From positions 186,001 through 250,000 of the forward strand of contig CP087215.1 of assembly GCA_020912385.1 (NCBI GenBank): 64,000 nt of DNA, written 5' to 3'. Within the stretch, counting starts at the first letter, position 1. Each line of letters starts with the position of its first letter. Below the pieces are notes generated by a model. It saw nothing but the letters and a program-made list of their open reading frames with translations, did no database searches and was not told the origin of the DNA. Shown one piece after another: positions 23,003 through 57,570 of this stretch. Made by a program: the position numbers and the translations under genes. This DNA is from Neofusicoccum parvum (Eukaryota; Ascomycota; Dothideomycetes; Botryosphaeriales; Botryosphaeriaceae).

Positions 23003-24696
23003 TTAACGCTTCGCCGGAGTAAGACGAACATTGAGCGGAGGCTTATTCCACAGCGTCCACACCTTCTGGTCGGACCAGTTAAGAGATTCATCACATAGCT
23101 CTATATCATACGTCCAAAGCATAATGGACAAGATCAACCTGATCTCATGATATGCCAAGCTATGAAAAAGTGAGCTTCAAGCATCCATCAGGGACAACGC
23201 TGGCCATATAAAGACTTACTTTTTACCAAGACAGTTTCTTGGGCCATACGAGAACGGCTCGAACACATCTCGCTTGTCGCACTCATACTCAGGCGCACCC
23301 ATCCAACGTTCGGGAACAAAGGAGTCGGGATCGCGGAAATTGGAGGGGGAATTATAAGCAGAGTAATGATGGACATAAACCCTCGTCTGTAAATAAATGA
23401 CCACGTTAATAAGAAGCCAGGTAGGGAATATCAGGAGGAAAGATGGACACTTACGCCTCCAGGTACCCACTGCCCACAGATAGCCGCTCCGCCTTCAGCA
23501 ACTTTCCTCGGCGTGCCGATCGGCGCCGGCGGATACATGCGGAGTGCCTCCTCAATGCAAGCATGCAGATACGGCAGCTGCTGCAGGTTCACCAGATTCA
23601 TATCCCGCAAGTCGGTAAACGCGCCACGAATCTCATCGACCAGCTTGCGCATCTTGTCCGGGCTGCGCAGCAAGTAATACGTGAGGCCGCTCAGCGACGT
23701 GGCCGTCGTCTCGGTGCCGGCAAGCATGAAGAAGACGGAGTTCGAATGCATACGCGACTCGTCCAGCTGTCCGCCATCGCGCAGCACGAGGCTCCAGATA
23801 TCGTGGTGGCCATCATCACGGACCTTGGCCAGCCGACGCGTGACGCGGTCGATCGAATTCCTAACATGCAGCCTCTGCGAGTCCACGAGCGACCGGGGCA
23901 CGACGAGGCGCCACAGGGGGCCGAGCCAGGTGTACTCGCGCGCCACCCTCACCAAGTCGAGCGCCTTGACGTTCGCGAAGACGGCCTGGATCCACGGCGA
24001 CAGCGCGGAGCTCTCCAGCAGGTGCAGCGGCTCGCCGAACGTCAGGTCGCCCATGATGTCGAACGTCGTGCAGTTGTACAGCGTCACCAGGTCGCTCGTG
24101 CCGCCCGCCGCCGCCGCCGCCGCCGCCGCCACCCGCCCCAGCTGCTCCGCGTACCGCCGGATCAGCGGCTCCTGCGCCACCAGCGCCTTGTGCGAGAACG
24201 CGTTCGCGAAGATCCGGCGCACCCGCCCGTGCGTGGCGTCGTCGTGCTCGGTCTGGAGCGTCGGTCCGCCTGTTGCGGATGGCGGGCTGTACCATCGCGT
24301 GTCCTTGCCGTGGCTGGGCTTGCCGCCCACGCGGTGCCCGAAGATGTCCTTCCAGGCGCGGGCGTCGATGTAGCTGAGCTCGTTGGGGTTGACGCGGACG
24401 ATGGGGCCGTACTTTTGGTGCAGGCTGTGGATCCATCGCGTCTGGTTTCCGCGGATGGCGTGGTACCAGTACGGCGCCTGGGTGAGGGCGCTCAGCTTGG
24501 GGCCTGGGTATTTTGCCATCGGGCTGAGGTACCAGTTGTACATCAACATCCAGGTGAAGTGGATGAGACCCTAGGTGCTCTTGTTAGCGAATGCTCGCCG
24601 ACGACGGCAAATGCTTACCAGAACGAGTAGCCCTGCCACAACATTTCGGGGCGTCGAGACCTGGAGAGGTCGGTCAAATGTATCGTTTCCCGTCAT
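23003..24696 (-). CDS. Cytochrome P450 monooxygenase
   Basis: Four exons are supported: 24619-24696, 23455-24570, 23220-23386 and 23003-23159. The introns are 48, 68 and 60 bp with GTAAG donors; the sum is 505 residues, normal for a microsomal P450. The first exon supplies the N-terminal membrane anchor ([19 protein letters not shown]), followed by KYPGPKL. Diagnostic motifs are AGTETTAT (I-helix oxygen-binding), EEALR (ExxR), PERWMG and [11 protein letters not shown] (heme Cys loop). A run of nine Ala at about residue 165 comes from a GCC repeat near 24104-24130. The sequence resembles CYP65-like secondary-metabolism P450s. It lies at the left end of the region that ends with the UstYa/precursor pair and next to a Zn2Cys6 regulator, so a tailoring role on a secondary metabolite is likely but unproven. 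Confidence 0.9.
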
Positions 24697-25232: not shown

Positions 25233-27261
25233 TTATGCATCCTCCCAAATGGCACCAGTGTCAAACTCGTCCCATACTGCCTGCCATTCCGACCACGGCA
25301 AGGTGCTCTCGTCGACGGAGAATTCAGGCATGACGAAGGTATTCTGCCTCTCGGATGATGTTTCATTGCCGCCTGTGCACGATGGTAGCCCCGAAAAACG
25401 ACTGGGAGAGAGCACATGGCCATCTCTGGCGTGGTTTTCGCCAGCTGTCGCTGCACCCATTCTGATTTCGCGCGCTTGAGCCATCAACTCGTGCAAAGGT
25501 CGCAACAACAGTGACGTCTTTGAGTCCGGAGAGCTGTCTAAAGGCGGCAGTGATATTTCTGTGATCGTCTCCCACGCCCGTTGAGCTAACTCGTCGTCTC
25601 TGCCATCGCAAAGCTGGAGAAGCACGTAGCAAAGCTGGTGCCACTGGCGGGGCGAACGGAAAAGCATGCTGCGTTGAGATACACGCGGATCTGTCATGAT
25701 CACTTGCCCTGATTCAAGGCATTCCAGAGAGTTCGTGAAAAGTCTGTCTACGATTTCATGCGGAAGTTCGAGGCCGCGGCGGAGACTGCGGAATGGCCGG
25801 TAAAGGAGGAGCCAAATCTTTGAGAGCAGGAACCGAAATACGGCTGTGCCAATCAGAAACAACGGGTGCTCGCTGTTTCGAGGATGGAGATAAGTGTTGA
25901 CAATGTTCTCAGCAAAGTCTGCAACGCAGCGTTCCTTGTGGGCGAGCCCCCCAGCTATCGCTGCACCTGGTTTGAGGCGTCGCAGAAGGCGGACCATCTC
26001 AAAACGGATCAAAGAGCAAGTGATCTCCGTATACTCAAGAGATGTCTCTGGTAGGTGTTGCATGTTCGGGCTGAGATCATTGTCGCGGACGTTGAGTGGA
26101 GGGTGGGTGTCGAAAGCCATGTCCAGCGTTGTACATTCCACACCGCAGCGTTCGGAGGCCATGAGATCGAAGAAGCAGATCTGCCACCACAACCGACGGC
26201 GCATCTCAACTGCAAAGGGAGAAAGAGCAAAGTGAGAGCCATCGCGGTGAAGGCCCATTTGCTGAGCTACTCGTAGTGCCAGACCAGACATGGGCCATAG
26301 CTCTTCTGACTCGGTTCCGGGCATACTACCAAGGAAGAGAACAAAAGCCTGGAGGACAGAAATGTCCTTAGTCCGTAGTAAGCTGGCCTTCTGAAGCGAA
26401 TATTGGGTGGCAAGCCTATATTTGAGGAGCAGAGTGCGCTTGTCTTCCCCGAGTTCACGCTTGCACTCTTCATCCGACAGGCTTGCAGTAGCACTGTAGC
26501 ACATGGCAAAGATGAGAGGTGTGGGAGCCTTGTTGGTTCTCGCAGATACGTCTCCATATGCCAGGAAAGACGCAGACTCAGTCGGCAGGTGTAGAATCTT
26601 GATGTGCGGGTCGACTCTTTGAGCGTATTTGTCCAGATAGAATGGAATTTGGGCCGCTGGTGGGAGGTACACAAGAGGTGCCACGTCCGGAATCCCTTGG
26701 CCCCAGATCAGCCCGAAGCCGCTAGGGGGAGGGGTTTCCTGAAGCGAACAACCGACATCAGCCTCGCCTTTCTCGGCAAGCACCGTTCCAAGCTCCTCGA
26801 CCTGGCACAAGGATATCCTTAGCATAACGCGCTGGCGGGAAAACGGCCATGGGTCTCACTTCGTCATGGAATCTTGCAAGAGTACCGTTCGTTGTGTATT
26901 TCGTTGCTCCGTGGCAGATTTCCAGCGCTCCGAAGCTCTCGGTGATAGACCAAACTTTATTGGCCGCCGCCAGGCTTGATTCTGCACCATCGCTCGTTTC
27001 GGAGCTCGTGTTTGCCTCAGAAGTGGTTCGATCGGCCACTCGTTCTTCTGACGTTGCCGCACCGGCTCGCAAAGATTGGACGACGCCCTCCAAGTCCCTC
27101 ACCCGTCCTACCAGCTGCTGATACGGCGCCGCGCGCGGCCTGCGCATCCGGCGTCTCTCGGTGTACACGCACTCGACATGCAGGCGTACGCAGTTGGAAC
27201 AAGGGTGTTTCTTGTCGCAACGTACCTTGCGCCGCCTGCAGATTGCGCATGTCGGCAGCAT
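25233..27261 (-). CDS. Zn2Cys6 fungal-specific transcription factor
   Basis: Two exons (26860-27261 and 25233-26801) with a 58-bp intron (donor GTGAGA, acceptor GCCAG) give 656 residues. The N-terminus is a binuclear zinc cluster with exact C-x2-C-x6-C-x5-C-x2-C-x6-C spacing (CAICRRRKVRC...CSNC...C), followed by a basic linker and a heptad-like dimer segment (VGRVRDLEGVVQSL). The middle carries the fungal_trans domain (LRVAQQMGLHRDG, EMRRRLWWQICFFDLMASERCG). Such factors bind paired CGG triplets and often control the cluster they sit in. Paired CGG palindromes occur in the adjacent P450 promoter. An intron-free reading would create a different exon junction and is rejected because the spliced product keeps both domains in frame. 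Confidence 0.9.
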
Positions 27262-28143
27262 GGATGTTGTTCCTGGGTGTCAAAGTGGGCGCTGGTAGGT
27301 TCGTTTAGCGTGACTTTTGATGACTTCCTGGCAACTGTGAGCCCCTCAAGTTCATCCGTGGGCGGTCTGACGTGGGTTCCGCGGACCATTGTGCACAAGC
27401 GTGGTTCACATGCTCTTCGCGCCACGAAGCAGTTTCAGATGCCAAGTCAGGAGGCCGATGCGCTTTGGCGGACCGTTAGTACCCGCCGAGGACCGTTCGT
27501 ACCCGCCGACGATCTCATACCAGGGGTAGTTGCTACATTGCAATTAGCGTAGTAAAAAATGTCTCAGCTCTCTTGGCTAGCCGTGCAGTTTTCGTGTTTG
27601 AAAGCAAACGACAGTTTTTGTTGAAGGAGATAGTCTGCTGGACTTCGCATTTTCCAGCAGTGAGAAAGCCGCATTGCCACCTTTCAAACCACCAGTGGCC
27701 ACGGTAAAGTCAACATACGTAGTACACTAGTTGCATCTGGCGATGATTTCCATTCTGCGGGTTTTCTTCCGTCAGATCGGACCTACATCGGGACAGGTGG
27801 TATCAGGCGCCCTGGGGTATTTAGGAGCTGCAGTTGCAGGTACTCATATGTTGAGTCAAGGCAGGGCAGCTGTCAGAATATATAGGGTCACCTATTAGCA
27901 CCAGTCATTAGTGCGGTGTCTGGTGGCCATGCACTTCACGCATTGCGTCCTTGCAAGAGCTAAGCTTCTCAGCTCAGCTCCTTAGAAATCATCCATCAAT
28001 AGGCCAATATCACGAGTATGTTATGACGCCCGTGACAGTCATGAAACCAGAAGCATGGCTGTACCTCGGCGTCAAATACAAGATGTTCAACGAACATAGA
28101 TAGTACTATCTACACTTACAATAGTCTAGCTGATTCTTTCTTT
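27262..28143. other. Regulator upstream region
   Basis: About 880 bp, no gene. A short direct repeat of GACCGTTNGTACCCGCCGA occurs twice at about 27470-27510. Confidence 0.5.
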
Positions 28144-29292
28144 CTACACCACACGCGCCGTGTACGCGCTCGTCCTCTCCGCCTCCGGCCGCGCATCCCA
28201 CTCCTTCAGCACCGCCGGCAGCTCATCCTGCTCCCAGCTCTCCCAAATACTCTTCTCCCTCGGCGCCCACCCCATCTCCCGCAGCCGCACCGCGCGACTC
28301 CTCGAATTCAGCCCGATCGCCGGCCCCGTCCCCGCCGCAAACAGCTGATCCCAATCGCCCTTCTCTCGATCAAACGACCTGACCTCCGGCGCGGGCAAGC
28401 GTCCGCACTTCACCAAGCTCTCCGCCACGCCCTCGGCGACCTCCTTCCACGAAAACTCGCGGCCATTCTCGCAGAAGAAGTACGGGTTCGCGCGCAGCGC
28501 CGCGTCGTCATCCGGCCCGCGCTCCAGCGCGTGCAGCAGGACGACGTAGGCGCGAGCCAGGTCCTTGACGTGGATCTGGGACTCGACGCTCAGGCCGGCG
28601 CCGACGTGGCCGGCCCAACCGCGCACGAGCGCGAAGCGCGCGATCGTCGGCAGCTGGATGGTCAGGCGGCCGTGCCGCTCGTTCCAGCCGTAGATCTCGG
28701 GCGGGATCATGATGGCCAGCTTGGCGGCGGCGCCCAGCTCGGAGCGCGCGGCCTGCGCGATGGCCAGGTCGACGAAGCGGTGGGGTTGCGTGGCGGGGAG
28801 GCCGTCGATGGCGGCGGGGTCGGCGTCGCTGTAGATCGCGTCGCCTTTGTATGCGCCGAGGGCGTTGTCGTCGAGGAGGGAGGTGCCTGATGTGTGGATG
28901 TAGATGGTTTTTTTGGAGGCGGCGGCGCGCTGTCGGATTCCGTCGAGGATGGCTTCGACTGAGGCGAGGTGGTCTGCGGTCGCGGTGTGGATGACGATCT
29001 GGAGGTAGGATTATTAATCAGCGGGGACGGGGGCTTAATGAGAGAAATGATGGGGGCGTAGCTGGCGGAGAGAATTAGCTCTACGTACATCGGAGTCCGC
29101 TGTGTGTTGGGAGATGAGCGGCTTGTCGTCCAGGTCACCGAAGATTGCCTGCGCGCCGGACTTTCTGATGCCTGCGGCGTGCTGCTCACGGCGCACGAGC
29201 CCGCTGACTTGGTAGCCCTCGTCGATGAGCAGGTCGAGAACGTTCCAGCCAATGAAGCCGGGCCCGACGATGAAGACCTTCTTGCCAGACAT
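28144..29292 (-). CDS. NAD(P)-binding epimerase/reductase (extended SDR-like)
   Basis: Two exons (29089-29292 and 28144-28998) with a 90-bp intron (donor GTACGT, acceptor TCCAG) give 352 residues. The N-terminus is a Rossmann fold with VFIVGPGFIGWNVLDLL (GxGxxG-type loop), and a later strand reads TIYIHTSGTSLL. IPPEIYGW sits where extended SDRs/epimerases carry their PxxIYG motif. SQIHVKDLARAYVVLLHALE is the conserved C-terminal block of the NAD-dependent epimerase/dehydratase family. These enzymes act on carbonyl or sugar-nucleotide substrates with NAD(P)H in the cytosol; the substrate is not predictable. An upstream in-frame ATG at 29307 adds five residues and is equally possible. It could serve the neighbouring biosynthetic genes. 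Confidence 0.85.
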
Positions 29293-30400
29293 TTTGGGGT
29301 GAAGCATGCAGCTGTTTCGTGAAGAGGGAGCGGTGCGGGGTACAAATCTCTGATATAGAGCGGGACGGCGAATTGATAGTCGTGGTTGACCTCACGTTGT
29401 TGGTGGGTCGTCGGATATCGGTTACCTACAGAGGATATTGCGTCCGACCGCTAACGCGAAGGATTTCGTGCATTTCAACAGCGAATTGTTGTGATTGGTT
29501 GGAAATGGCAGGATTCGCTTGTGTCAACGGTAAACAGGGCTCTGAGACACGGAAAAGACACATTGACAGCTTCACCCGCTCCTTCTCCCCACTCCTCACC
29601 CTGCCTCAACAACAGTCGACTGTGCGTATCCCAGTCGCTCCGCTATCGCCAAGAAAATTTAATAAAGATACCCAGTAATACCGGGCTTCTAACCGAAATG
29701 CTTAAATCCACGAGGACAGGTTAAATTTAAGCATATTTGTTTGGTTTACCGCGTTTCAGGTTTACTAAATTTCGTGCTTCTTTATAGTTATCTTCGAGAT
29801 GGTGATCATGAACGGCAGTTACCCGCTGCCAGACCTTAATGTCTTTAACCACGGCTCTGATAAAGAGACAGATTAAATCTGTCGATGAAGCACCCCCGAA
29901 TATAAAACGATAGCGCTCAAATAGCTATAGATGCAGCAGGAGTTTTAAATCGCAACTCCAATGTCAGGTCTATGGTGGAGGTATCTTCATCTTAATGATG
30001 TAATCCACTTAACGAAAATGTCACAGGCAGAACAGTCGCAACAACCGGACTTAATATACTAGAGGTGCTTGCGCCAGTTCGTACTGCCTCGAAGCGCAGT
30101 GGTATCCTGCTTAGTGTCTCGCACAGGAGTCCTGGGCAGGATGCTGCTTCTACCCGCATAATTTGCAAACAACGAAGGGCTACAACGAGAAGAAAGGCGA
30201 CATGCAATTAAAGCTTGATCACTCGATATGGCAGTGTGCACTCACAAAGCAAGAATGAGCAAGGTGGCGGCCGCGCTAAGTATATTTACCTAAAGAATGG
30301 TCGGGTCTAACGCTACTCGATCCGGACCCCTCTTCTCCCTTCTTCACCCCATCTACCGTGCCAAACAAAGCTGATCAAGATCGCAAATGCCGAAAAGGCT
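29293..30400. other. About 1.1 kb intergenic
   Basis: No gene seen. The part 29640-29960 is AT-rich and holds an inverted repeat ATGCTTAAAT/ATTTAAGCAT (29698-29707 and 29725-29734). Confidence 0.45.
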
Positions 30401-30775
30401 CTAGGAGCTTCCGTTGGTGGAGCAGTCGATGGTCTGCTTGCTGCAGGCGTGCAGCGCCTGGGTCATGTCGTAGTTGGTGCACCCAGAGACAGTGTTGAAG
30501 GTGTAGTGCGCCGTGCCGGCGCTGTCACGGGTGCAGCCCCAGTCGGTGACGTCGCCGCAGCGGCCACGGATGTTGTCGAGGCAGCCGCCGCCGCACTGCT
30601 TGTTGTAGGTGGCGTCGTTGTCGAGGTAGATGCTCCACGTCGCGTAGACGACGCCGAAGTCGTTGGTGCAGGAGTTCGAGCGCTTGACGACTTTGACAGT
30701 CTCGTCGTTGTTGGCAATCGGGGTGGCCATGGTGAGGCCGGCAAGGAGGGCGGCGAGGATGGTTGAGGCGTGCAT
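30401..30775 (-). CDS. Small secreted cysteine-rich protein
   Basis: A single exon of 124 residues starts MHASTILAALLAGLTMATP, a clear signal peptide, followed by a short propeptide ending in VVKR, a Kex2-type site. The mature part has eight Cys (SCTND, QCGGGC, RCGDV, WGCTRD, GCTNY, HACSK, DCSTN) and ends in GSS. Upstream frames that extend the N-terminus lack a signal peptide and are not used. The family is not recognised; an effector or antimicrobial role is possible. It lies inside the candidate cluster region but has no evident biosynthetic link to it. Confidence 0.75.
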   Translation of the reverse strand: MHASTILAALLAGLTMATPIANNDETVKVVKRSNSCTNDFGVVYATWSIYLDNDATYNKQCGGGCLDNIRGRCGDVTDWGCTRDSAGTAHYTFNTVSGCTNYDMTQALHACSKQTIDCSTNGSS

Positions 30776-32248
30776 TGTTGTGACTAGTGGAAAGTTTGCA
30801 GAATGTGCGAGAATTGATTGATGAGTGCTTGGACTGAGTTGGAGCTGAGTGCTGGAGCTGGTGGATGGTGATGAAGCCAAAGAGTGTGGCAGTTGGCCTC
30901 CATTTATACTTGACTCTCGCTACCAGAGTCACCGACGTGGCAATGTCAAGCCTACGTGTGTGATGTTCCATTTCTGTCCGGTCCTCTCAATCTACTACCC
31001 AATGCAGAAAGAGGGCACAAATGTTGACCGTGACAGACAAACAAAATGGTTCACTCTTGAGAACACTTGGGGGCCATACTGGTGGACAGAGGTTTTGGGG
31101 GCTGAAAGCTATGACGACTCTCCAGTCTCGGAAGAACGCGTACTCGCAGGGCTGTACGTGTGGAGATGACTGGGGATGAATGGGAGGCTTTTACTAGGGC
31201 TCCTGCCCAGGCCTCACAATCCTGCGCTCATCAATGCTTCCTTGAGACGTTTTTTCAATACTTCTACTTCAATTGTCACACGAATGGTCCCACATCTCAC
31301 AATGTCTCGCCGGTTGAGGTTTGCTGTAAGCGTAGCTGCCTAGAATGCTGCCAAAGGAGGCTAGGAACCGCGAGCCTTACTGACGATCTTTTTCTGCTAA
31401 GCCTCGGACCCGAGCATCTAGCGGTTGCTTTCAGTATTCGAGAAGATAGCCGTTGACAGATGGAATTCGTATTCTCCACCAGGCTCGGCCATAAAGCTTA
31501 TCCATCGGACTCGGATATAACATCTCCGTAAGTGGGTCCACACCAAAGAATGCCCCGAATAGCGCTAAACACAATTTTTTCGATTCGAAGTTGAACTTAG
31601 CCTTAGTTTTTTAGTCTTTCCAATCCTCGATAGTCAATACTGGTCGGTAACACCACGCGAGTTTAGTGACTGAGCGTTGAGTACTGGTATAGTCTGCACT
31701 TTCGCCCACACGAGCCCCGAAGATACGGAGACATTACGCGTCTATCGTCTGATTCCCGAGGCTACGGTACCTAGCTCCACCTAAAAAGTGCTTAGAAGTG
31801 ATCTGACGGTGCTTGTCACACTTAGCATGGCTAGAATTGGTAGTGCGTCTCCGATTCCGTCCGGGTTGGGCTTAGTACGTTCCCAATACTATGAAATCTT
31901 CCGTAGTGGTGGGAGAGGTGTAGAAAAAAAATTGAAAGTTGATCTCGGACATAAATGAGTAGAACTCGGCGATGTACTGTGAGACCCGAGGCGCATTGGT
32001 ATTCTACAACAAATTCTTCAAAGCAGCCACTCATGTTGCATAGCATACGAGTGTAGTTACATTGGAAATCAGTTTCATTCCTTCCGGCAATCCCATGTAC
32101 CGCGTACACTAGAGAATATGCCATCGTGGAAATCTTGTCGCGTTGTTTGTCGAGGTCGTCTGTGGTTGCAGGGCGCTCATCTGTGAATTATACCACCTGT
32201 CCCTTCGTGTTCAAAACTCATATGTTCAGGTAGTGCTGTCGTCCGTAT

Positions 32249-33202: not shown

Positions 33203-34042
33203 ATGTCGACGACCTCAGTTCCATCCAGCCCTATCATCTTCCATGACATCGCCCTGCGTCCCCCGGTGGAGAAAAACTGCTGCTCGCCAAACCCCTGGAA
33301 AACCCGAATGGCTCTCAACTTCAAGGGTCTCCCATACACGACCACATGGGTGGCTCTACCCGACATCCCCAAAGTCCGCAGCAGCCTCAAAGTGCCACCT
33401 TGCCGCAAATTCGCCGACGGCACCGACTTCTTCACGTTACCCATCATCCAGGATCCCGCCACCGACTCGCTGGTCGGCGACTCCTTCGACATCGCCGTCT
33501 ACCTGCAGAAAAACTACCCGGACTCGGGCGCGGGCGACCTCTTCCCGCCTCAGACGATCGACTACGTCTTCGAGAACGAGTTCACGCTGCTCGTGCCGCT
33601 GTCGGACTGCCGCGACAGCGACTTCCCCGAGTACGCCCGGTTCAACGTGAACGTCGACGCGGCCTTCAGCGCGCATGCCCAGCTCACGGTCGGGGGGTTT
33701 CCGTTCAATCAGGCCACTGCGGAGGCCACGAAGGCCGAGTTCGTCCGGCGCGCCGGTGTTACGTGCTGGGAGGACTTTGCGCTGGAAGGCGAGGCGCGGG
33801 AGAAGACGAAGGACTCGTTCCGGAGCATGCTTGGCGATCTGGCTAAGCTGTTCTTGAGGGACACCAGTGGGCCGTTTCTGCTCGGGAAAAGGGCTAGCTA
33901 TGCGGACTTTATCGTTAATGGGTGGCTGCAGATGATGCGTGTAACTCTGCCGAAGAGTGAATGGGAGGAGGTGAGAAGTTGGCATGGGGGTGTTTTTGGG
34001 AAGTTGCATGATGCATTAGAGGTGTATGCGGAGGTGAAATAG
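33203..34042 (+). CDS. Glutathione S-transferase-like protein
   Basis: A single exon of 279 residues with a good start context (CCACCATGT). The N-terminal thioredoxin-like half shows NPWKTRMALNFKGLPYTTTWVAL, FFTLPIIQDP and LVGDSFDIAVYLQKNYP, which match the GST N-domain glutathione-binding loops (the cis-Pro in LPIIQDP and the D-S pair). The C-terminal half is helical and contains LLGKRASYADFIVNGWL, the GST C-domain cap motif. Fungal members of this type conjugate or deglutathionylate reactive intermediates. Some secondary-metabolite clusters include them. It is 1.2 kb from the UstYa gene, and upstream AP-1-like sites suggest stress control. Confidence 0.88.
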   Translation: MSTTSVPSSPIIFHDIALRPPVEKNCCSPNPWKTRMALNFKGLPYTTTWVALPDIPKVRSSLKVPPCRKFADGTDFFTLPIIQDPATDSLVGDSFDIAVYLQKNYPDSGAGDLFPPQTIDYVFENEFTLLVPLSDCRDSDFPEYARFNVNVDAAFSAHAQLTVGGFPFNQATAEATKAEFVRRAGVTCWEDFALEGEAREKTKDSFRSMLGDLAKLFLRDTSGPFLLGKRASYADFIVNGWLQMMRVTLPKSEWEEVRSWHGGVFGKLHDALEVYAEVK

Positions 34043-34237: not shown

Positions 34238-34876
34238 TCACCCCACCCTCTCACACCCCGCAAACTTCAACATCGCCGCGACCGGCACCTCCCCGCCATC
34301 CGCCGTCCACCCCTCCTCCCCCAACAGATACCGCGCGCACGCATCCGTATGCCGCTCCTCGCCCACATACGTATCCATCACGCCGCGCAGCACGCCCCGA
34401 TGCATCTTCCGCCACATGAACACGCAGTGCGCGACGTAGAACGCCCGCGTCACGTACAGCGCCGGCATCTCGCCCGCCAGCACCTCGGCACGCGCCACCG
34501 GCCTTGCCCCGAACACGTCGTACGTCCACGTCCAGTTGCCGGCCGCCATGAACTCGGCCGTCAGCGCCGCGTCGTGGCACGCCGGCGCCTGCCACGCGAA
34601 GCTCAGCGGGTCGAAGATGCAGCCGGCGGCCCGCGCGGCGGTGGGTGAGGAGCCGCAGGTGCCGAGGGAGGGGCGGAAGGTGGTGTTGGTGGGGGGTGGT
34701 GGGGCGGGGCCGCGCGGGTGGAGGTGGAGGGTGAGGAGGGTGGTGGTGAGGGAGAGGAGGATGGTGGTGGTGGCGAGGAGGAGGGCGTGGAGCCAGGGCC
34801 GCGGGCGGTGGGGCGGTGGGTGTGGGCTCGGGTCCGCGGGTGGGAGGAGGTGGTATTTTGGTTCTGTGGAGCTCAT
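34238..34876 (-). CDS. Single-pass membrane protein with HC motif, UstYa-like in layout
   Basis: A single exon of 212 residues. After a Pro-rich cytosolic head comes one membrane helix (WLHALLLATTTILLSLTTTLL) and then a luminal domain with LGTCGSS, AGCIFDPLSFAW, AFYVAHCVFMWRKMHR and ERHTDACARYLL. This matches a widespread ascomycete family with a conserved CG...GC.FD...W start and an H.HC.Y.W.K.HR block. The order helix, HC block, second H-C block recalls UstYa/DUF3328 oxidases, although the second block here is HTDAC and not HxxHC. It is transcribed in the same direction as the UstYa gene, 0.4 kb away. A role as partner or second oxidase is speculative; the gene could be unrelated. Confidence 0.7.
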   Translation of the reverse strand: MSSTEPKYHLLPPADPSPHPPPHRPRPWLHALLLATTTILLSLTTTLLTLHLHPRGPAPPPPTNTTFRPSLGTCGSSPTAARAAGCIFDPLSFAWQAPACHDAALTAEFMAAGNWTWTYDVFGARPVARAEVLAGEMPALYVTRAFYVAHCVFMWRKMHRGVLRGVMDTYVGEERHTDACARYLLGEEGWTADGGEVPVAAMLKFAGCERVG

Positions 34877-35280: not shown

Positions 35281-36305
35281 CTACTCGGAGCACTCAAGCC
35301 CGTGGGGCAGATTCTCCAGCCGTTGCGTCGGAACAGACAAATGGAACCCATCACCCTTGTGCCATCCGGTACCCTTGCCCAAGGCTTTCAGGCCAGGCGG
35401 CGGCGGCAGCTGCACTGCGTCATCGGGCTTCTTGAAGGCATACCAGTGCCTCCGCGCATCCTGAAGCTTGGTGCGCTCCTGCCACTCGAGTACAGCATTG
35501 AAGTCCCTGCACTTCTTGTTAATGCCGAAGTTTGGGAATGGATGCAGCTGCGTCTCCCGCCAGTCGTAAGTGATGACCTCAACGTCGGCGTGACACATGA
35601 TATTTTGCCGCAAAACGTCCATGCAATGATTCAAGTGCGACGAAAACATGATCGGTGGGTCCAGGCCGTAGCGGTCGCCCCAGTAATACTGGTAGTTGTG
35701 GATGAGACCTTTGCGGAGGGAGTTCAGGCAGTGCAACTGGTGGAAGACGTCGATTTCGGCCATGTAGTTTCCGTCGAATCCCCAGTCGGCTGGCGGTCGG
35801 AGGGATGTGGCTGGATCCTTCCCCACGCGCTCGACATCATCGCGTGTGATGGAGTGGATTCCAACGTTGGTGATACGGTCCCAAGCCCCGTCAACCTCTG
35901 GACTCGGAGGAAGGCGGTAGATGTGGGCCGGATTGGACGCGTTCGGCAGCAACGCTGATTCGATTTGATAGTCAAAGAGTGGGATAGACACTCTATCGAA
36001 TATCGGTGCTGTTCTCAGCTGTTAGCAATTTGATGGCATGGGGTCATCATTTTCGGCTCACAATATGCGGAGACTCGTTTCTCCAAAGATTTATCGGACA
36101 ACAGGTACTTCATCAAAAGTCCTGCTGTCACGAGGTTGGATAGGAGGACGATAATGACGGTGATGAATACCCCCCGCCCGCTCACGTGGCGGGCCAATCG
36201 GGTGAAATAGTTCAAACTTCGTCGGCCTTGGACAAATCCTTCCACCTCGACCTCTTCCTCATCCACCTCCTTGTCCTGCAAAAGGCCGTATCTTGAGTCT
36301 GTCAT
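35281..36305 (-). CDS. UstYa/DUF3328-family protein (putative RiPP oxidative cyclase)
   Basis: Two exons (36062-36305 and 35281-36008) with a 53-bp intron (donor GTGAGC, branch TGCTAACAG, acceptor AACAG) give 323 residues. An acidic head is followed by one membrane helix (GVFITVIIVLLSNLVTAGLL), then a domain with both signature motifs of the family: HQLHCLNSLRK and HLNHCMDVLRQNIMCHAD. The HxxHC pairs are thought to bind copper. UstYa-type proteins catalyse oxidative ring closure of ribosomal peptides in dikaritin-type pathways and act in the secretory pathway on precursors with repeated cores. The divergent neighbour encodes exactly such a precursor. The C-terminal 60 residues, Pro-rich (LPPPPGLKALGKG), are longer than in typical members. 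Confidence 0.92.
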
Positions 36306-36992
36306 CGTGAGCTAAGAAGTTTTTGGAGTTGGGAGTTTCAACGAGGACGCGTTTGAGGAATAATTCACCAAGTCGACGGGTGTTGATATAGCGCCTCCGG
36401 TGGGGCCGCGATAAGCACCCTATCTATCGTTACCCCATGTGCGGGCTGGAAACTTGGGGAGGGCTGGGATCATCCCGAGCTGAAAAAACAGACGTCAGAT
36501 AACACAAGTATGCACAATCATTTAGCCTCAATCCTGTAGGATTTGCAGGAACGAGATAGTCGGGGTTGATGCATCATGTTTGCCTTGTGCTTTTTGTTAC
36601 CTGCCATTTTTGAGTTCGTGCCAACAACTTCGGATCTTGGTCTACCGTCTCTCCGGCTTGGACACAGCAGTCCCATGTCGCAACAACAATATTGCCAAGC
36701 ATTTGTGATGATATGATAGGAAATCCAGACTGTCATCGTGCGCTTCATTTCCTGTTGCATATTAGTCCTACGGATTTTGGGTGCCGTAGGATTGCAGCTC
36801 GTGGGACAGGACCATTCTGTGCAAGCTCGCAATGTGCAGTTGATTTCTGTGCTCCGAGCACTGGTTTTGGATTGAAGCGTTGGAATATAAAGGTTACGTT
36901 TCTTTCTCAAGAGAAGTAATCAGCACCAGCCCCAATTCTTTTTCGCCATCGGATTCAAACAATCCAAGCTCGGCCCCCAAACAACCATCATC
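36306..36992. promoter_or_regulatory. Divergent promoter region between UstYa and precursor genes
   Basis: The 687-bp spacer carries a TATA-like ATATAAA near 36886, about 105 bp before the precursor start. On the UstYa side, about 90-110 bp from its start, is CTCCGGTGGGGCCGCG, which contains CGGTGG, the half-arm also found in the P450 promoter palindrome. Shared control is inference. Confidence 0.45.
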
Positions 36993-37366
36993 ATGAATTT
37001 CAAGATCGCTGCTGCGCTTCTTGCCATCCTTCCAGCCTGGCTGGCATACGCCAGTCCTGTTGGACCAGTTCGTAAGAGCGTCATTCTGCCTATTGCTGGT
37101 CATCTCTGACGATTTTAGGATCTGTCGATAGCGAAGAAGGCCAGGAAGAAGTTCAAGCTTGGGGTGGGGATCTCAATGCTATTGATTTCAAGACAAAGCG
37201 TGATGAGGTAGAGGACGATGAGACGGTGGACGTGCAAGCTTGGGGTGGTGACTTGAACGCCATTGACTTCAAGATGAAGCGTGGCGAGGCGGAGGAGGCT
37301 GAGACTGAGGATGTGCAGGCTTGGGGTGGTGACCTCAACGCTATTGATTTCAAGCGTGATGTGTAG
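36993..37366 (+). CDS. Dikaritin-type RiPP precursor (Kex2-processed repeat protein)
   Basis: Two exons (36993-37071, 37119-37366) with a 47-bp intron (donor GTAAGA, branch CTCTGACG, acceptor TTTTAG) give 108 residues. Residues 1-21 are a signal peptide ending AYAS. Three tandem 27-residue units follow; each has an acidic linker ending in VQ, then AWGGDLNAIDFK, then a Lys-Arg Kex2 site (TKR, MKR and directly KR). Core positions are 37157-37192, 37238-37273 and 37319-37354, spaced exactly 81 bp. The three cores are identical in protein but differ at synonymous sites. Kex2 cleavage at KR in the Golgi would release linker-core fragments for further trimming and, if like known dikaritins, cyclisation by UstYa-type oxidases. 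The core has Trp and Phe but no Tyr. A repeat pheromone-like peptide is the main alternative. Confidence 0.88.
37157..37354 (+). repeat. Three 81-bp precursor repeats
   Basis: Core copies at 37157, 37238 and 37319 have constant 81-bp spacing. Copies 1 and 2 differ at seven bases in six codons, all silent; copies 1 and 3 differ at three codons and copies 2 and 3 at three, again silent. The acidic linkers between cores differ in amino-acid sequence. Confidence 0.9.
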
Positions 37367-43876: not shown

Positions 43877-46800
43877 CTACGTATGCCCTACATCAATCCC
43901 GAAGAATCGGTACACCATCGGATTGGTGGAGTGTGCAGCCATACGGACGATCACGTTTAAAGACATGCAATCTGAGCCGGGCCAAGAAGCCTCTTCGATA
44001 TTACCCCCATTGTGATGAAGAATCTTTACGCACTCAAGTTGCCCATCTTTTGCAGCCGCCAGGAGCGGGGTATTGCTGAAATTGTCCAGGAGATCCAGGG
44101 AGGCACCATGATGAATCAAAGCGTTGACGGCATCGACCCATCCCAAGCTGCTGGCGATGTGCAGTGCCGTCTCTCTTTGAGAGGTTACGCGGTGGTTTAA
44201 GTCCTTGACATGGGGAATGAGTGTGAGCAGAGCGGTCTCGGTTGTTCTTGTCTGACATATGTTCTCTAATCGGCTATAGGAGATCTTGTCCAGTGTCCCC
44301 TCTTCATCCAGAGATGAAGGTTTCTTTGTTTGGAGCTGTTCCCTGAGCAAATCTGCCAACTCCAGGTTTCCAGCCCGAAGTGCTTCTAACTCCGCAGTAG
44401 CTGATACGGGGCAATTGTGGCAAAGAAGGGCCTTGACCATGTCCATATTGCCTTTTCGTGATGCAATCTCAACAGGTGAGCTCAATGCCTGAGTGTCTGT
44501 GACAGCGAGTTTGCCATGGCCCGAAAGTAGATAGTTGCAGATTTCGAGGGAACCGCCTTTGCAGGCGAAATGAAGGGTGGTAAATCCATCCTTGTTGACT
44601 TCAAACGGAGACGCACCCGCAGTGATAAGTATCTTGCAAGCTTCAAGGTTCGCCTTCCGGCATGCCAAATGCAACGGTGTTGTACCACGGGTAGTTTTTG
44701 GGTCTAACTTGAGATTCCTCTCATTTGCTAAAAGCCACTCGAGAGGTGCCGTTTTGGTCTGCATGGAGGCAAGGTGCAGTGCTCTGGCGTTATTGAAATG
44801 TTGATTGTTCTTGTAGATCTTGATGGGCGCTTCAAAATTGAATCCATCGATAGTCTCCAGAAATTCCCGGAAAAGGGGGAAACAACAATCCCTCATTGCG
44901 AAGTGAAGCAACTGCCAGCCATCCTCATCTTCTACAAGAGCATTAGCACCTTTTTGGATGAGCATCCTAACAGTATCAACATTCTCATAGTTTGCTGCAA
45001 CTAGCAATGGTGGATCTCTCCAGACTGATCCATTAGATGTTCGATTTATTAATGGATCGTCAATTCCTCCGTGGCGGTCGATCAGGGCGGCAACCACGGA
45101 ATCGGCTCCCAATCGACAAGCCCAATAAAGACAACTGTGGTTCATCTTGTCACAGGCATCGATAGTTTTTCCAGCTGCTTCGATCATCCGGGAAGCAACT
45201 CCAAGGTCGTTCATGGACTTCAAAATGTGAATTAGCGGCATGTAGCCGTCTCCGTCAAGAGCTGTTGACTGGACCAATATTGGCAGGTGATCTGGGAATA
45301 ACCGTTCCACTCCAGGTTTCTTGCAGATATGATGAACGAGTGGGACCCCATCCCCACAAAGTTCGTCGAGGTCCGAACTCTTCATACGAGGCAGGATGAG
45401 TCGTAGAAAATCAATGTTTTTGCATTTGCTCCGCGCAGCAACCATCATTGGTGTCTCGCCTCGTTTGTTTCTGATGGAAAAATCAATTTTATGTTTGAGG
45501 AAAGCAGAAATGACCTGTTCGAACGGGAACCCAGACTTGCTTTTAGCAACATAGTGCATTGCAGTCATGTCGCGGTAGTCTTGTTGGCTGAAGAAGCTAG
45601 CGTCCTTTTCCGGTTCGATAAGTATGCGAAAGACGTGTGAAATAATTTCCTGGAATTGATCTTTCGACGTTTCTTTGAACTCAATGTCGCTTGTAGACTT
45701 TGCAAAAGCAAGCATTGGCGTGCGAAGTTTGTCCCCTCTAGCCGAAAGATGGTCTCGGAACTCAAATGGAGGATTGGCCAGTAACATTATCTGGTGCAAT
45801 TCATACTTTGAATCTGAGTTCTGCTCGTGTAATCTTTCACAGAGGTTTTCCAGACTCAAATGTAGTGGTGTTCTTGACTCTGAATCAGTCGAGATAAGGG
45901 CATTTTCTCTGCTCTTCCCATAGCGCTCATCCTCCAATACCTCCTGCAGGATCTCATTCGAATGGCCAGACGGCTTTCTTGCACCGATGAGGAGATGGAG
46001 GAGAGTCTTCCCAGATCCGACCGTCGTGCTCAAGTCATCCTCCAGTTCGATAAGACTTCGTAAAATCCGGATACTTTCCTGAGAACCCCAACCATCTGCG
46101 AAGGTCTCCAGGAGTACATGGATTGGGCGTCGGCCATCTGCAGCTGGTGAACTGAAATCCACAAATCGTTCTTGGAGAAAACGGAACAATTGCTCATTTC
46201 CGGACTTGACGGCCAGGTGGGCGGCAGTCAGGCCAAGGCTTGTAGTTTGTTGCAAGTCTATGTCGGGATGGACTTCTAGGAAGATTTCCAGTACATCCAA
46301 GTTTCCGACATCAATGGTATATAGCCATGGCGTGAGCTCTTTGTGGTCTTTTCTTTCCAAGGCAGATCGTGGATCTTGACAGCTTTGCAGAAGGCTGCGT
46401 ACTATCTTAGAGTCGCGTTCCCACGCAGCTGAGTGTAGAGCAGTCATTCCATCCGATCTTCGTTGGTATGACGGATCGACCCCCTCTCCAAGCAGGAAAT
46501 TGACCACCTCAGCTTGATCGTTTGTTGCAGCATATGATAGGCACACAGATAGAACCTCATCTCTATCTTCTTCCGGCATTGTTGAAAGACATGGCAGTAA
46601 GCTTGAGAAGGTCTCAAGGCGTCCATGTGAAGCCGCAATTGGGAGCATCTGCAGGTAGTTCTGCTTCATGTGCTCAAACACTGCCTCAGATGGAATATCC
46701 TTGTCCTCGTCTCGATCAATCCTGAAATGGTTTTCAACGAGCATCTTTGTGAATATGGGTTCAGATTCTGGATCCAGCAATGCAGTCGTTGTTTCCGTGA

Positions 46801-49569
46801 GGAACGCCTCCACAACCTCTCTGCCTCCATATCGTATGGCCATTTCTAAAGCTTCTGCTGTGACCGGAAAACCTTTTTTAAGGAGTGAAGCCACAGTTGC
46901 ATTATCTTCTCGTTCAGCTGCCCTTTTCAACGGATCATGATTTAGTATGTCACGAGTTATGTCCTCTAAGAGGAGGCGTTCAATGACTTGCAACCTTGTG
47001 ATTTGCGAAGGCCATTCATCTTCACCAAAGCCGTGAGACCAACCACCAAGTGCACAAATCAGAGGCGTCCTCAGAACTCGGTTGCATCTATTAACGTCGG
47101 CTCCTTCTTTGATCAAGTTGTCGACCACTTCCGGAAGACAGCAAACGCAGGCAACGTGTAAAGGGGTGATGTCCTGAATCTCGTCCGCCGTGTTTGTTTC
47201 GTATTCGAACTCTGTATGGTAGGGCAACCAGGTGCAAGCCCAAAGACAGAAGTGATCTGATTTTTCCGGCTTAAAAAGCTCGAGCTCTAACTCCAGAACC
47301 TGAGAGTTGTTGGTGTCAATTGCATGGTGTCGAACGGCGCGAGAAAGTAAGACACCGCTGGTTTTCTTATTGTTGCTACAGAATCTTGCTATATAGGTGT
47401 AATGATCGGATTTACGGAAATACGCATAACTAGGGTGAATGACTTGTGCAGGGGTAGGTGTATGGTGTAGTAACAAGGCAAGTAGTAAAACGCATGTGGA
47501 ACAAGGAGGTAAAACACGTGATTGCGGGCCAATGTGGTTGACACATGGTCGAACCAATACCGAGAAGCGTAGTCGTAGAAAGGTCGGTGAGCCGTGTGCT
47601 CGTCCCACGATGTAGAATCTTGCAAGTCAAGAGCCGAGAAATCGTCCAAGAGAAGATACGACAAGCAGACAGAGGCGAGATAGTCTTGATCGTTCTCTTT
47701 GTTGACCCGGAATCTGGCGAGTTCTTGATCCTTGGTGTCGATCTCACAGAGGTACTCCTTTACAGAGAAATGACTGAAAGAAACTATCCCGTCAATAGTA
47801 CGAACAAGACTGCTGCAGGGTCTAAGTATAGTTTCAATTTCCAGGGTGTCGTCGAGTTCTTTCTCTCCTGGTTCCACGCTGATGGCTTCGGCCATGGCAG
47901 ATATGCTCATTGGACACCTTGCCAGTGCGATCCAACGAAGCGCTTTTTCAATAAATCCAAGGGTCGACTGTCGTTGTGAAGTGACTGCACGGTGAAGGAT
48001 TCTCTGATACGTTTGTGGGAGATCCGGTGGAAGATCGTTTAGGGCCTTTCTACGTAAACCATTGGTAGCAAGGCTTTCGAGGTGGTCTAGCTGGCATCTA
48101 TGTTTTGTTAGCTCGGCCGCTCTTATGCGCAGAAGGATAAAATCGACTGACTTGACCCATTGAAACCTAGTGGGAGTTTGTCAGCAAGAGATTCTTCAAT
48201 GATGCAGCATGCTTGCTTACATTCCCTCGGACCTATCCACTAAGCTTTCCAAGATGTCTTGCCTGAGTTTCGGATCTTTGGATGTCATTCGTTTGAACCT
48301 TGAATCCAAATGCGCGGCAACGTAAAGTCTGACATCAGCTCTATCGGCAGCGATTGGGAGGCTCTCGAATGCACTTAGATCCTGTTTGATGTCTAGCTCC
48401 TCTCGGCTCGCGAACAATGTCTTTATGCTGCCTCGTGAGCTCAACACGGCGAGGTTGCGGACAATTTCACTGCGATCATCCAAGCATTCGTCCAGGCCAT
48501 CGATGACAATGGTCGTGGTGTCAAAATTGGTCGATAGGTCTTGAACGAGCTCCACCCATTCGGAATCATCGCGAGTTTTCGAAAAAGCATGTGAGCCATC
48601 GTGCAGGCTGTGGAACTCTTCCAAAATGGCAAAAGAGTCGGTGTTCTGGACGGCCAGTTGCCGAGCAATCGAACCGAGTATTTGTCGAGCTGTCTGGGTG
48701 ACTCGGTTGCCGTATTCGCAGAAGAAGAATGCGACGGCCATCTTCTCGCTTCGCTGAAGCGAGTCGATGATTGCTGCGCTGAGGACTGATTTTCCCGCGC
48801 CAGGGATCCCGTACAGCCACAGCCGAGCGTTTGGAGAGTCCAAGAACTTCTTGAAATCAGGGCCATTTGTAAACCACAGACCGGTGCCGTCTTGGCGCAG
48901 TCCGAGATGTTTCTGTAACGAATGCTCAGGGTGGAGCCCTGAAACATCATCGAGTATTTTTCGCCGGTGTTCGCTGAGGCGCCGCGTCTCTTCGGCAACC
49001 TTGGCAGCCCAGATACGAGCCTGAGTATCCTTCATCTCCCTCAGTTCCGACATTGCTTCGTCCTGCCTTCTAAGGACCTCGACTATCCCGGATAAGGAAT
49101 TTTGCGTCATTGCGAGCAGGAGAGTCGATTTATGGTTCTCGAGATCGTCAAGAAGTTTCTCAACTTCGTGTTTCTTGAATACCCAGACCGCTCGATGTTT
49201 TGTGACTTCCCAGGTTGAAGGCGTCCCCTTGACGTTGGATTTCGATGGTGGGGCTCCAGCTCCGGAAATGCCTGTGATGTTGTCGCTGGGACCACATTTT
49301 GCGAGAAGTTTCCGAATGTTTTCCAGAGTTGTGCTACAGTCAAATATGACCTTTCCAGGGTTTGTTGCGTCATTGCTTGGAAGCTGATCCAGAATGAGAC
49401 CGAGCCCTTTGAGAATCCCGTACAAATTCGCGACGCTATTGCTGAGGCTTTGCATTTCCGCTTTCGCGCCGCGAACAGATTGAATGACTGAGGAGATTCC
49501 TTGGACGATTTCCTTTGCCAATAAGGCAAGCCCCCCGACGCTCGCAGTTATGGATAGCGGATCAGTCAT
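43877..49569 (-). pseudogene. NACHT-ankyrin NLR-like gene disrupted by the 216-bp element
   Basis: Exons are 48221-49569, a 15-bp exon 48152-48166, and 48097 downward; the introns (54 and 54 bp) start GTAAGC and GTCAGT. The N-terminus (MTDPLSITASVGGLALLAKE) is the fungal STAND N-domain. NACHT follows with P-loop GIPGAGKS, VIDGLDEC (Walker B) and FASRE. After MFQWVKCQLDHLE comes the winged-helix-like region, ending FYDYASRYWFDH. The frame then runs into the inserted element (47328-47543). Beyond it a 3.4-kb frame encodes a long ankyrin array (ITPLHVACVCCLPEVVDNLI and many more) to 43877. Removing 221 bp (element plus one CCATG copy) joins both frames exactly, giving about 1787 codons. Splicing inside the element could also bridge the frame. 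Ancestral role: non-self sensing and cell-death signalling. Confidence 0.82.
47323..47548. mobile_element. 216-bp solo-LTR-like element, copy 2, with 5-bp target duplication
   Basis: The core at 47328-47543 is the exact reverse complement of 4496-4711. It is flanked by CATGG (CCATG in gene direction) at 47323-47327 and 47544-47548. The different duplication from copy 1 (ACTTT) shows two independent insertions. The element lies in the same direction as the NLR gene, with TG at the gene's 5' side. Confidence 0.82.
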
Positions 49570-49898
49570 ACTCGCAATCTCTTTAATCGGAATGGACAGC
49601 TAAAGCGTTTGGAAAAGGGACTTCATGGCAAGAAACCGAGGTGCGATAACCTAGAGCTGGGCAAAGAAGACGTTTCGATGAAAAATGGGTCTGGCAAGCC
49701 AGAAAAGTGGGATAAAAGAGGTTTCTGGTGGGAATTCGAGCAGGTGCCTGGCCTGCGTATTAATGTTGCCTTGACTACATCCGATATGCCGCGGTCGGAA
49801 GTATTGATTCAACCGGCACCGCCTGCATGATAACAAGTCGTGCCCAATTATTGGTGGGTGTGCTAACTATGGAGCCTACGCCCTCTATTTCCAATCAA
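49570..49898. other. Spacer between the NLR gene and the LINE nest
   Basis: About 330 bp. A 73-codon frame at 49609 has no recognisable feature. The right end is the target site of LINE A. Confidence 0.5.
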
Positions 49899-51970: not shown

Positions 51971-53503
51971 ATGGCGGTCGCCGACGCCTTATGACCGGGC
52001 GACAACCCACTTTCGCTCTACGAGCACGCCGCACAGCTTAGGACCCAGGCAAAGCAGCTCCTTGACGATGCAGCCGACCACAGACGTAGCTTCCGCTACC
52101 ACACCATCGCCCCGCTGATCGAGAGCGCCATCGAGCTGTGCGATAAAGCCCTCGGCCAACCGACGCCGGCCGAGCTGAAGGCGGCCATGAGCTCAGTCCT
52201 CCAGACGGCGAACGACATTAAGAAGGACACCAGCGCCATTAAGCGCACTACTGACACTATTAACACGGCAGCCCCTCTTTCCCAGCAGAACACGCAGCAG
52301 AGCCCCATGACCTGGGCGCGAGTAGCAGCGCTGCGAACGGCAGCGACAGCGCAAGCGCAGCCCAACCTCGCGCCGAGCCCGACCGAGAAGTATCGCGAAC
52401 TGGTGATCAAGCTTACGGACCCACAGACGATCAGCCACCTCCGCTCGCAGCCCGCGACCCACCTTAAAGAACGTATCAACCGTGCCCTGAAGTCGCAGAC
52501 GGATCCCGAGGTAAACAAGATCCAGGTAGTCGCGGCGAAGCAGCTCCGGAGCGGGGACATCGCGGTATACACAAGGAACCAGCAAGAAAAAGAGATACTG
52601 CAAGAAAGCGCACACGGCTGGGTGGAGACTTTTGGAGGATCGGCGCGGATCGTAACGCAGACGTACGGTGTCATCGTGCACGGCGTACATACCAAGTCAA
52701 TAGATCTCTCAGATATGGAGAATGCCATCAAGGTACTCGAGGCAGAGAACAAGCCGCTGCTTCCCAATGCCGAAATCAGATACGTGGGCTGGCTGACCAA
52801 GGCCTCCACTAACAAAAGGGCGTCGTCCCTGGTGGTAGAATTCAGCAGGGCGGAGGACGCCAACGCAGCGATCACCGGCGGGATGGTGTGGCAGGCGGAG
52901 ATGCTCTCGTGCGAGCTCTACGACCGGACATGCAAAGTCAAGCAGTGCTTCAACTGCCAGAAGTACGGCCACATAGGAACCCAGTGTCAAGCGCCGCAAG
53001 CCTGCGGCTACTGTGCAGGCCAGCACAGCTCCAAGGAATGCGGCCAGAAGGAGGATCCAAACGCGGAGCGCAAGTGCGCCGCGTGCAAGCGCTCCCACAC
53101 GGCGTGGAGCGCGGTCTGCCCGGAGAGGAAGAGAGAGAAGGACAGGGTAGAGAGAGCCAAGGCCATGAGGCCATTCCTTCACCCCGAGACTATTGGCAAG
53201 AGACCATCAACCACGACCCAGACACCAACGCAGACAGCCCAACTCACGGAATGGAGGACGAACCAAACGCCAGTAGCTCCGGCAGCACGCCTGACCAGGA
53301 AGCGCGGAAGACCGAGGTCACTGCACGCCGAGCCTGAAGACGAGGTGATACGAAGCGAGCGGCAGGAGGAAATCGATAGCCTAATTAGGGCAAGCCAGCA
53401 GCTCCGGGAGAAGGCGCTGGCCATGTCGACCAAGCAAGCCACGAATGCTCAGCAGCTAAGCATACAGCTACCTAGCAACGAGGTTACAATGCTCGATGAC
53501 TAA
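51971..53503 (+). pseudogene. LINE B ORF1 (gag-like, zinc knuckles) with one nonsense codon
   Basis: An ATG at 51971 opens a frame that meets TGA at codon 8 (51992-51994), then stays open to 53503, 510 residues in all; the next ATG in frame is 52187. The N-terminal part is helical (YEHAAQLRTQAKQLLDD). The middle resembles the RRM-like region of LINE ORF1 proteins. The C-terminal third has three Cys clusters: CFNCQKYGHIGTQC (CCHC), CGYCAGQHSSKEC and CAACKRSHTAWSAVC. Such proteins bind element RNA and form the transposition particle. The TGA is explained by a CGA-to-TGA transition. Its stop overlaps the ORF2 start in ATGACTAA. Confidence 0.85.
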
Positions 53504-57547: not shown

Positions 57548-57570
57548 TCATCATCATCATCATCATCAAC
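57548..57570 (+). repeat. TCA microsatellite tail of LINE B
   Basis: About seven TCA units follow TGAATTCA. This is the 3' end of LINE B, where other LINEs have a poly-A tail. Confidence 0.85.

Follow-up and report, generated by a model that had tools for sequence, protein, structure and literature searches.

Closest described systems

The ustiloxin and phomopsin loci each combine a Kex2-repeat precursor with DUF3328/UstYa proteins, and Kex2 cuts after Lys-Arg (KR). Five dikaritins had been reported according to a 2022 review, which also describes the heterologous production of fungal RiPPs as difficult and states that residue desaturation in phomopsin biosynthesis likewise depends on UstYa homologs (PMC10512285). 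Macrocyclisation in the known KEP pathways is reported to require UstYa/UstYb or AprY (PMC6514808), and the Tyr-O to C-beta ether of asperipin-2a is described as a product of the UstYa family (PMC12186524).

One catalogue of such precursors is that of Umemura 2020 (PMC7329392), which reports 7,878 KEPs in 1,461 fungal genomes, 1,758 of which have a DUF3328/UstYa gene within their 15 nearest genes, most often immediately beside them; loci that combine a KEP with UstYa are therefore not rare. The other 6,120 KEPs were reported without a nearby DUF3328 gene and include some linear pheromones; among pheromone KEPs, almost all lack such a neighbor, with three exceptions. As given in the same survey, Tyr occurs in 65.6% of the KEPs with a nearby DUF3328 gene, and Trp occurs in the repeats of 20.5% of KEPs with, and 24.5% without, such a gene, that is, with no enrichment (PMC7329392).

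Another member of the family is CctR, the cyclochlorotine hydroxylase, which is copper- and O2-dependent and for which the HxxHC pair is essential (PMC12435403). It is membrane-bound and proposed to face an organelle lumen, and its authors hypothesise an accessory protein that gives electrons or Cu(I) (PMC12435403). In the lyciumin-type burpitides, a four-His copper BURP-domain cyclase is reported to join the indole N of Trp to carbon (PMC12186524). These are plant products of a different enzyme family, and we use them as an analogy only.

A UstYa gene divergent from a Kex2-repeat precursor

The window, by which we mean the whole 64-kb stretch of DNA that was analysed, comes from Neofusicoccum, a plant pathogen. 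The original prediction had proposed that it contains a UstYa/DUF3328 protein with both HxxHC motifs, facing, across 0.69 kb, a 108-residue precursor with three identical cores, each next to Lys-Arg. The features of this pair are as follows; the introns of both genes were picked by us among the listed splice options, and the gene models are therefore predicted ones.

35281-36305, minus strand: UstYa gene, 323 aa, one predicted intron
36062..36305, minus strand: UstYa exon 1, encoding the tail at the N terminus plus the membrane helix (helix by eye)
between 36062 and 36008, minus strand: UstYa intron, 53 bp, GTGAGC...GAACAG (predicted)
35281..36008, minus strand: UstYa exon 2, domain bearing the copper motifs (PF11807; AlphaFold model)
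35728..35742, minus strand: copper motif 1, HQLHC, residues 171-175
35623..35637, minus strand: copper motif 2, HLNHC, residues 206-210
36306..36992, no strand: intergenic region between the divergent starts, 687 bp (computed)
36886-36891: TATAAA ahead of the precursor (TATA box by eye)
36993-37366, plus strand: precursor gene, 108 aa, one predicted intron
36993..37071, plus strand: precursor exon 1, encoding the secretion signal (MNFKIAAALLAILPAWLAYA) and the first part of the pro-region (signal by eye)
37072..37118, plus strand: precursor intron, 47 bp, GTAAGA...TTTTAG (predicted)
37119..37366, plus strand: precursor exon 2, with the three copies of the core and the Kex2 (KR) sites, up to and including the stop
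37151..37192, plus strand: core repeat 1, VQAWGGDLNAIDFK, then TKR
37232..37273, plus strand: core repeat 2, VQAWGGDLNAIDFK, then MKR
37313..37354, plus strand: core repeat 3, VQAWGGDLNAIDFK, its K being the K of the KR site

The anatomy that had been predicted was largely borne out. The ORF of UstYa exon 2 alone matches PF11807 at 1.1e-49 (169.8 bits; cut-off 25) with HQLHC and HLNHC intact, and the 687 bp between the two start codons agree with the predicted divergent arrangement. In an alignment of the window UstYa with 18 of its 64 database matches, the HxxHC motifs keep all four His and both Cys without variation. An AlphaFold model of exon 2, made from an alignment of the window exon with 44 of the 64 matches, reached a pLDDT of 79.4 and a pTM of 0.79 and places the motifs on helices 86-99 and 119-138, in agreement with the published description of CctR, where each motif lies on a helix (PMC12435403). 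A comparison with solved structures revealed no clear relative, the best sequence match having an E of 0.71 and none of 72 fold matches at E <= 10 reaching E <= 0.001. Viral and prokaryote contigs gave only pattern matches to UstYa, none of them confirmed.

The precursor begins with a predicted signal peptide that looks typical by eye, and it was the sole ORF of the 64-kb window flagged by a fixed test for repeats plus [KR]R. Its three 14-residue repeats correspond to the KEP criterion of at least three repeats of at least eight residues between Kex2 sites, which we took from PMC7329392 and applied without that survey's own program. Between the three 14-codon VQAWGGDLNAIDFK repeats, 8 of the 14 codons differ by a total of 9 base changes, all 9 of which are synonymous; as only ~20% of random changes are expected to be so, the probability is, as a rough figure, ~6e-7. 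Judged from this pattern, the core is under purifying selection. The acidic spacer lies N-terminal to the core and KR lies C-terminal to it, in the contexts FK-T-KR, FK-M-KR, and F-KR. Thus, KR is found at all three cores, as predicted, but the Lys of the third copy belongs to the Kex2 site itself, and AWGGDLNAIDFK is therefore not the natural core boundary.

Among the 94 candidates of a precursor search, two matched at E <= 1, one from N. parvum and one from Talaromyces atroroseus. The former, UCRNP2_7477, has the same length, which supports the predicted 108 residues, is 94% identical over 100% coverage, and retains all three cores; none of the 7 amino-acid differences affects the 42 residues of the cores (P 0.028). 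The latter, UA08_06937 (E 9.5e-10), has four copies of AWGGDLNGIE. Three of these start with TVQ, two lying directly after KR and the first one after GR, and the fourth is in tandem with another copy with no Kex2 site between them. The spacer of UA08_06937 lies C-terminal to the core, whereas that of the window precursor is N-terminal. VQ precedes the AWGGDLN-[AG]-I-[DE] unit in all three window copies and in three of the four Talaromyces copies, and the element common to both, (VQ)AWGGDLN-[AG]-I-[DE], is our best estimate, from these sequences, of the natural core. Neither the Phe nor the Lys of the core originally proposed is conserved in Talaromyces, and Trp is the only aromatic residue of the core conserved across both genera. 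An artificial 302-aa query for longer precursor relatives gave no match at E <= 10 among the 7,998 candidates listed.

The UstYa search returned 954 candidates, 64 of them at E <= 1e-30, with UA08_06936 of Talaromyces atroroseus as the top match (50% identity, 98% coverage). UA08_06936 and UA08_06937 are consecutive locus tags and are recorded on a contig of the same length, 1,485,326, and on these grounds the UstYa-precursor pair is very probably adjacent in Talaromyces atroroseus as well, a fungus of a different class of Ascomycota from that of the window. In a midpoint-rooted tree of 41 rows (the window and 40 matches of at least 240 aa), the window and Talaromyces fall inside one supported group of 23 rows (96/98); Talaromyces is the nearest row by path, and no smaller well-supported group includes the window. 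The UstYa copy of N. parvum UCRNP2 was absent among the 64 matches at E <= 1e-30.

With the same pair found in Talaromyces, the dikaritin-type anatomy that had been proposed holds: on its sequence, the locus is a small dikaritin-type RiPP locus and a further member of the group that combines a KEP with UstYa. It fits the criteria of the Umemura 2020 catalogue, with three repeats and an adjoining DUF3328 gene, and the precursor may already be listed there, although the main text of that survey does not name Neofusicoccum (PMC7329392). It had also been stated that no product with such a core was known, and neither the core strings nor the locus tags were found in the open-licence literature. A close parallel is the asperipin-2a locus (AprA, AprY), which is similarly minimal, pairing a repeat precursor with a single oxidase of the UstYa family, and, as described, has no tyrosinase among its four genes (PMC6514808). 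Its core, FYYTGY, is reported as Tyr-rich, whereas Trp is the only conserved aromatic residue of the window core. The scanned ORFs of the window include no recognisable counterpart of aprT or aprR; the window has instead a glutathione S-transferase-like gene and the HC protein described below. The ustiloxin and phomopsin pathways are described with a tyrosinase and Tyr-based ether rings, whereas the window repeats have no Tyr and this contig carries none of the 26 PF00264 (tyrosinase) matches in the list for the genome. CctR is alike in belonging to the DUF3328 family and in having HxxHC...HxxHC and a membrane helix; it differs in that its reported substrate is a nonribosomal peptide and in that it works as a homodimer (PMC12435403).

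The adjoining HC gene and its family

The original prediction had overlooked both the Talaromyces relative and a gene on the same strand as UstYa, which starts 404 bp past the UstYa stop and which we named HC.

34238-34876, minus strand: HC protein gene, 212 aa, N-terminal membrane helix, FYVAHC...HTDAC

Its reading frame is intact along the whole length. The window copy has YVAHC and HTDAC, two of the four motif His being replaced (Y147, A179), and it matched no Pfam family above the cut-off and did not match PF11807 at E <= 1. Five queries, namely the window copy and four paralogs out of five, each gave the identical set of six genes in the 44-Mb genome (18 contigs). The paralogs are 25-32% identical to the window copy; all five have HxxHC...HxxHC, 30 residues apart, and three match PF11807 weakly (E 0.016-0.052, below the cut-off). 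An HC profile aligned with UstYa over both motifs, with an E of 5.9e-4 and a probability of only 29%. From these similarities, we read the HC proteins as a putative distant branch of the UstYa fold. A single-sequence model of the HC protein had a pLDDT of 47.5, good at the first helix and poor beyond it. The open-licence literature gave no mention of the family; searches for a nameless family are difficult, and this one may already be known elsewhere.

The 23 PF11807 matches of the genome were grouped by us into 12 UstYa loci. All six HC genes found sit at four of these, namely the window (one gene), C11:84-88 kb (two), C15:1074-1082 kb (two), and C11:47 kb (one). Outside the window, the repeat ORFs counted at UstYa loci are as follows.

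C11:82564-83073: repeat ORF, PQVRFVF x8, at an HC locus
C15:1084334-1085344: repeat ORF, PQKLKVD x25, at an HC locus
C11:42391-43875: repeat ORF, ADPPWYR x11, at an HC locus
C1:190777-191964: repeat ORF, APAYVW x13, at a UstYa locus without an HC gene

An HC gene is thus present at four of the five UstYa loci with a repeat ORF, versus none of the seven without (Fisher 0.010; one genome), as counted over stretches of unequal length (64 kb for the window; 14.5, 14, and 10 kb for the three other HC loci; 16-18 kb for the eight others) and on unspliced ORFs, a count by which more distant precursors would be missed. The ORF at C11:82564-83073 is atypical, with a dibasic site in two of the seven gaps between its PQVRFVF copies and a single R in the rest, and its exclusion changes the comparison to three of four versus one of eight (about 0.07). 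Among the eight UstYa loci without HC, the only repeat ORF is that on C1, which is also the only one of the five repeat-ORF loci with a tyrosinase match within 100 kb (C1:192397-193095); four PF11807 matches lie nearby. By our reading, these four matches represent three genes, and one of the matches is below the cut-off. An asparagine-rich repeat ORF on C5 failed the stricter repeat-plus-[KR]R test and was left uncounted, as were antisense and out-of-frame shadows of repeat ORFs.

The distribution suggests that the HC protein partners UstYa enzymes of the RiPP type, and we give a nearly even chance to its working with UstYa in this particular locus. That the HC protein is instead a chance neighbor, unrelated to the pathway, with a decaying copy in the window, seems doubtful to us, even if the two missing motif His, the modest profile match to UstYa, and the poor single-sequence model are what one would expect of such a gene; the presence of all six family members at UstYa loci in a 44-Mb genome, the location of the other five at three loci, each with its own repeat ORF, and the intact reading frame of the window copy all argue against it.

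One further gene of the window is a possible tailoring or protection enzyme of the locus.

33203..34042, plus strand: glutathione S-transferase-like gene (GST_C_7 8.1e-17, GST_N_2 4.6e-10)

A search of the genome at E <= 1e-5 gave nothing besides this gene itself. The 25 window ORFs scanned against Pfam, a minority of its ORFs, included nothing recognisable as a transporter or a peptidase. A P450 (23434-24570), ~10 kb from the HC gene, and a Zn2Cys6 regulator (25236-27279), ~7 kb from it, were set aside as members of the locus; in both cases there are genes in between and the evidence is neutral.

A possible route to an oxidised peptide

From these features, we infer the following course, from export of the precursor and its cleavage to oxidation of the peptide, including the bond formed and what the HC protein does. 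The precursor would enter the ER, Kex2 would cut after each KR, and the acidic spacers would be removed by other proteases, so that each precursor would release three copies of a peptide centred on VQAWGGDLN-A-I-D. UstYa, as a two-copper, O2-using oxidase in the same membranes, would then oxidise the core peptide, and the HC protein might act as the second half of the enzyme or as an electron or copper donor for UstYa. The window HC copy, having lost two copper ligands, would best fit a non-catalytic subunit, a candidate role. We consider it probable that the Kex2-cut precursor yields a peptide oxidised by this UstYa.

Since Trp is the only conserved aromatic residue of the core, the usual Tyr ether is excluded, and what is known of ring formation in ustiloxin, phomopsin, and asperipin is not simply transferable to a core without Tyr. 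The known UstYa rings, as reported, start from Tyr, and with Trp as the sole aromatic residue kept, our simplest guess is a bond between its indole and a C-H close by. The conserved Trp would be the likely site, its indole forming a bond to a C-H a few residues on (Leu, Asn, or Ile) with the loss of 2 H; hydroxylation or desaturation would be the alternative outcomes of UstYa. The joining of the Trp N to carbon by a four-His copper enzyme is conceivable by analogy with lyciumin. We hold the assignment of Trp as the oxidation site tentatively, at somewhat less than an even chance. No Trp-linked UstYa product was found in the titles and opening lines of abstracts of the open-licence literature.

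It is possible, if on balance unlikely, that the locus is a true RiPP locus whose UstYa forms no ring at all, the linear core being only hydroxylated or desaturated. CctR, of the same family, is reported to hydroxylate (PMC12435403), and the desaturation attributed to the phomopsin UstYa homologs (PMC10512285) points the same way; against this stands the reported need for UstYa/UstYb and AprY in macrocyclisation (PMC6514808). Such an outcome is compatible with our main reading, which leaves the type of oxidation open.

We regard it as improbable that the repeat protein simply yields an unmodified secreted peptide, a signal or an effector, with UstYa acting on something else. A core without Tyr would suit such a peptide, as would the 6,120 of 7,878 KEPs reported without a nearby DUF3328 gene, some of them linear pheromones (PMC7329392), but the pair has been kept in two fungal classes with a near-identical core, and the UstYa motifs are intact. 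A Kex2 pheromone precursor in particular is argued against by the UstYa gene 687 bp away, whereas almost all pheromone KEPs are reported without one (PMC7329392).

Several points count against our main reading. The core lacks Tyr, which 65.6% of the DUF3328-linked KEPs are reported to contain, and Trp is not enriched among these KEPs (PMC7329392). The Pfam scan of 25 window ORFs revealed neither transporter nor peptidase, and the UstYa of N. parvum UCRNP2 is missing from the 64 matches. The HC pairing comes from one genome, with a degenerate copy in the window and with mostly single-R sites in one of the counted repeat ORFs. The most far-reaching version of that reading, in which HC is a second HxxHC branch missed by Pfam that serves as a dedicated subunit of RiPP-type UstYa enzymes in tyrosinase-free loci, either as half of a heterodimer or as the donor of electrons or Cu(I), is non-catalytic in the window, and takes part in making a RiPP oxidised or cross-linked via Trp, we consider unlikely as a whole.

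Two features of the locus are less ordinary: its core, which lacks Tyr and is retained in two classes, and the HC family. If oxidation at Trp is true, it would widen the known reactions of the fungal dicopper UstYa enzymes, and a short core shared by two fungal classes lends itself well to use as a substrate in vitro. If HC is indeed a partner, a component has escaped searches limited to the Pfam UstYa domains, an omission that might partly account for the difficulty reported for heterologous production of fungal RiPPs (PMC10512285), and the HC genes are candidates for the accessory that is hypothesised to supply DUF3328 enzymes with electrons or Cu(I) (PMC12435403).

For the trimmed peptides, the computed [M+H]+ values are 1178.548 (linear), 1176.532 (minus 2 H), and 1174.516 (minus 4 H) for AWGGDLNAIDF, 1405.675 (linear) and 1403.659 (minus 2 H) for VQAWGGDLNAIDF, and 1031.479 (linear) and 1029.464 (minus 2 H) for AWGGDLNAID.

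A repeat ORF with a UstYa-like part in one frame

Kex2-type repeat ORFs were found together with UstYa or UstYa-like sequence on three contigs of the N. parvum genome (G000).

C11:42391-43875 (L022:2392-3876), minus strand, repeat plus UstYa-like ORF, single open frame of 495 codons
C1:177000-195000 (L038, L023, L039), UstYa/tyrosinase/repeat precursor locus, four PF11807 matches, one tyrosinase match
C15:1071500-1086000 (L018, L019), UstYa locus, two HC genes, repeat ORF
C11:79000-93000 (L020, L021), UstYa/HC locus, repeat ORF

The first of these carries eleven IADPPWYRDSAA-type repeats separated by KR sites; the motifs HQYHC and HTIHC follow in its C-terminal part. When this part was aligned with the UstYa profile using hhalign, both motifs were covered (E 4.1e-5, probability 70%), while the match to PF11807 was below the cut-off (E 0.087) and the profile of the HC family hardly matched at all. 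The frame, read as unspliced, may encode a RiPP precursor fused with its own UstYa-like domain; a search of G000 revealed no further copy.

Other UstYa loci with repeat ORFs

The C1 locus, whose precursor contains 13 APAYVWASSAK repeats, resembles the ustiloxin and phomopsin loci in its PF11807 matches, tyrosinase match and repeat precursor. On C15, the repeat ORF comprises 25 copies of PQKLKVD with dibasic sites between them, and this core, encoded beside UstYa and two HC genes, lacks an aromatic residue. At C11:79000-93000, eight PQVRFVF copies are separated mostly by single-R sites, and each of two nearby UstYa matches adjoins an HC gene.

Other features of the window

23434-24570, minus, cytochrome P450
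25236-27279, minus, Zn2Cys6 regulator
28147-29391, minus, NAD(P)-binding protein (weak match, below cut-off)
30401-30880, minus, small cysteine-rich protein
14951-15661, minus, pectate lyase (PF00544, 157.7 bits)
49867-51111, plus, non-LTR retrotransposon piece (endonuclease domain via Pfam)
about 53460-59824, plus, non-LTR retrotransposon piece (by eye, from the ORF list)
7969-10140, 12346-13446, 43880-47626, 48220-49599, 61372-63636, HET, NPHP3_N (NACHT-like) and ankyrin-repeat ORFs

The first three, ~5-10 kb distant from the window's HC gene, possibly form a separate small cluster. The cysteine-rich protein begins with a signal-like stretch and has a KR behind its pro-region; it gave nothing in Pfam at E <= 1 and by eye looks like a secreted effector. 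The HET, NPHP3_N and ankyrin-repeat ORFs are of a type known among fungal self/non-self recognition genes.
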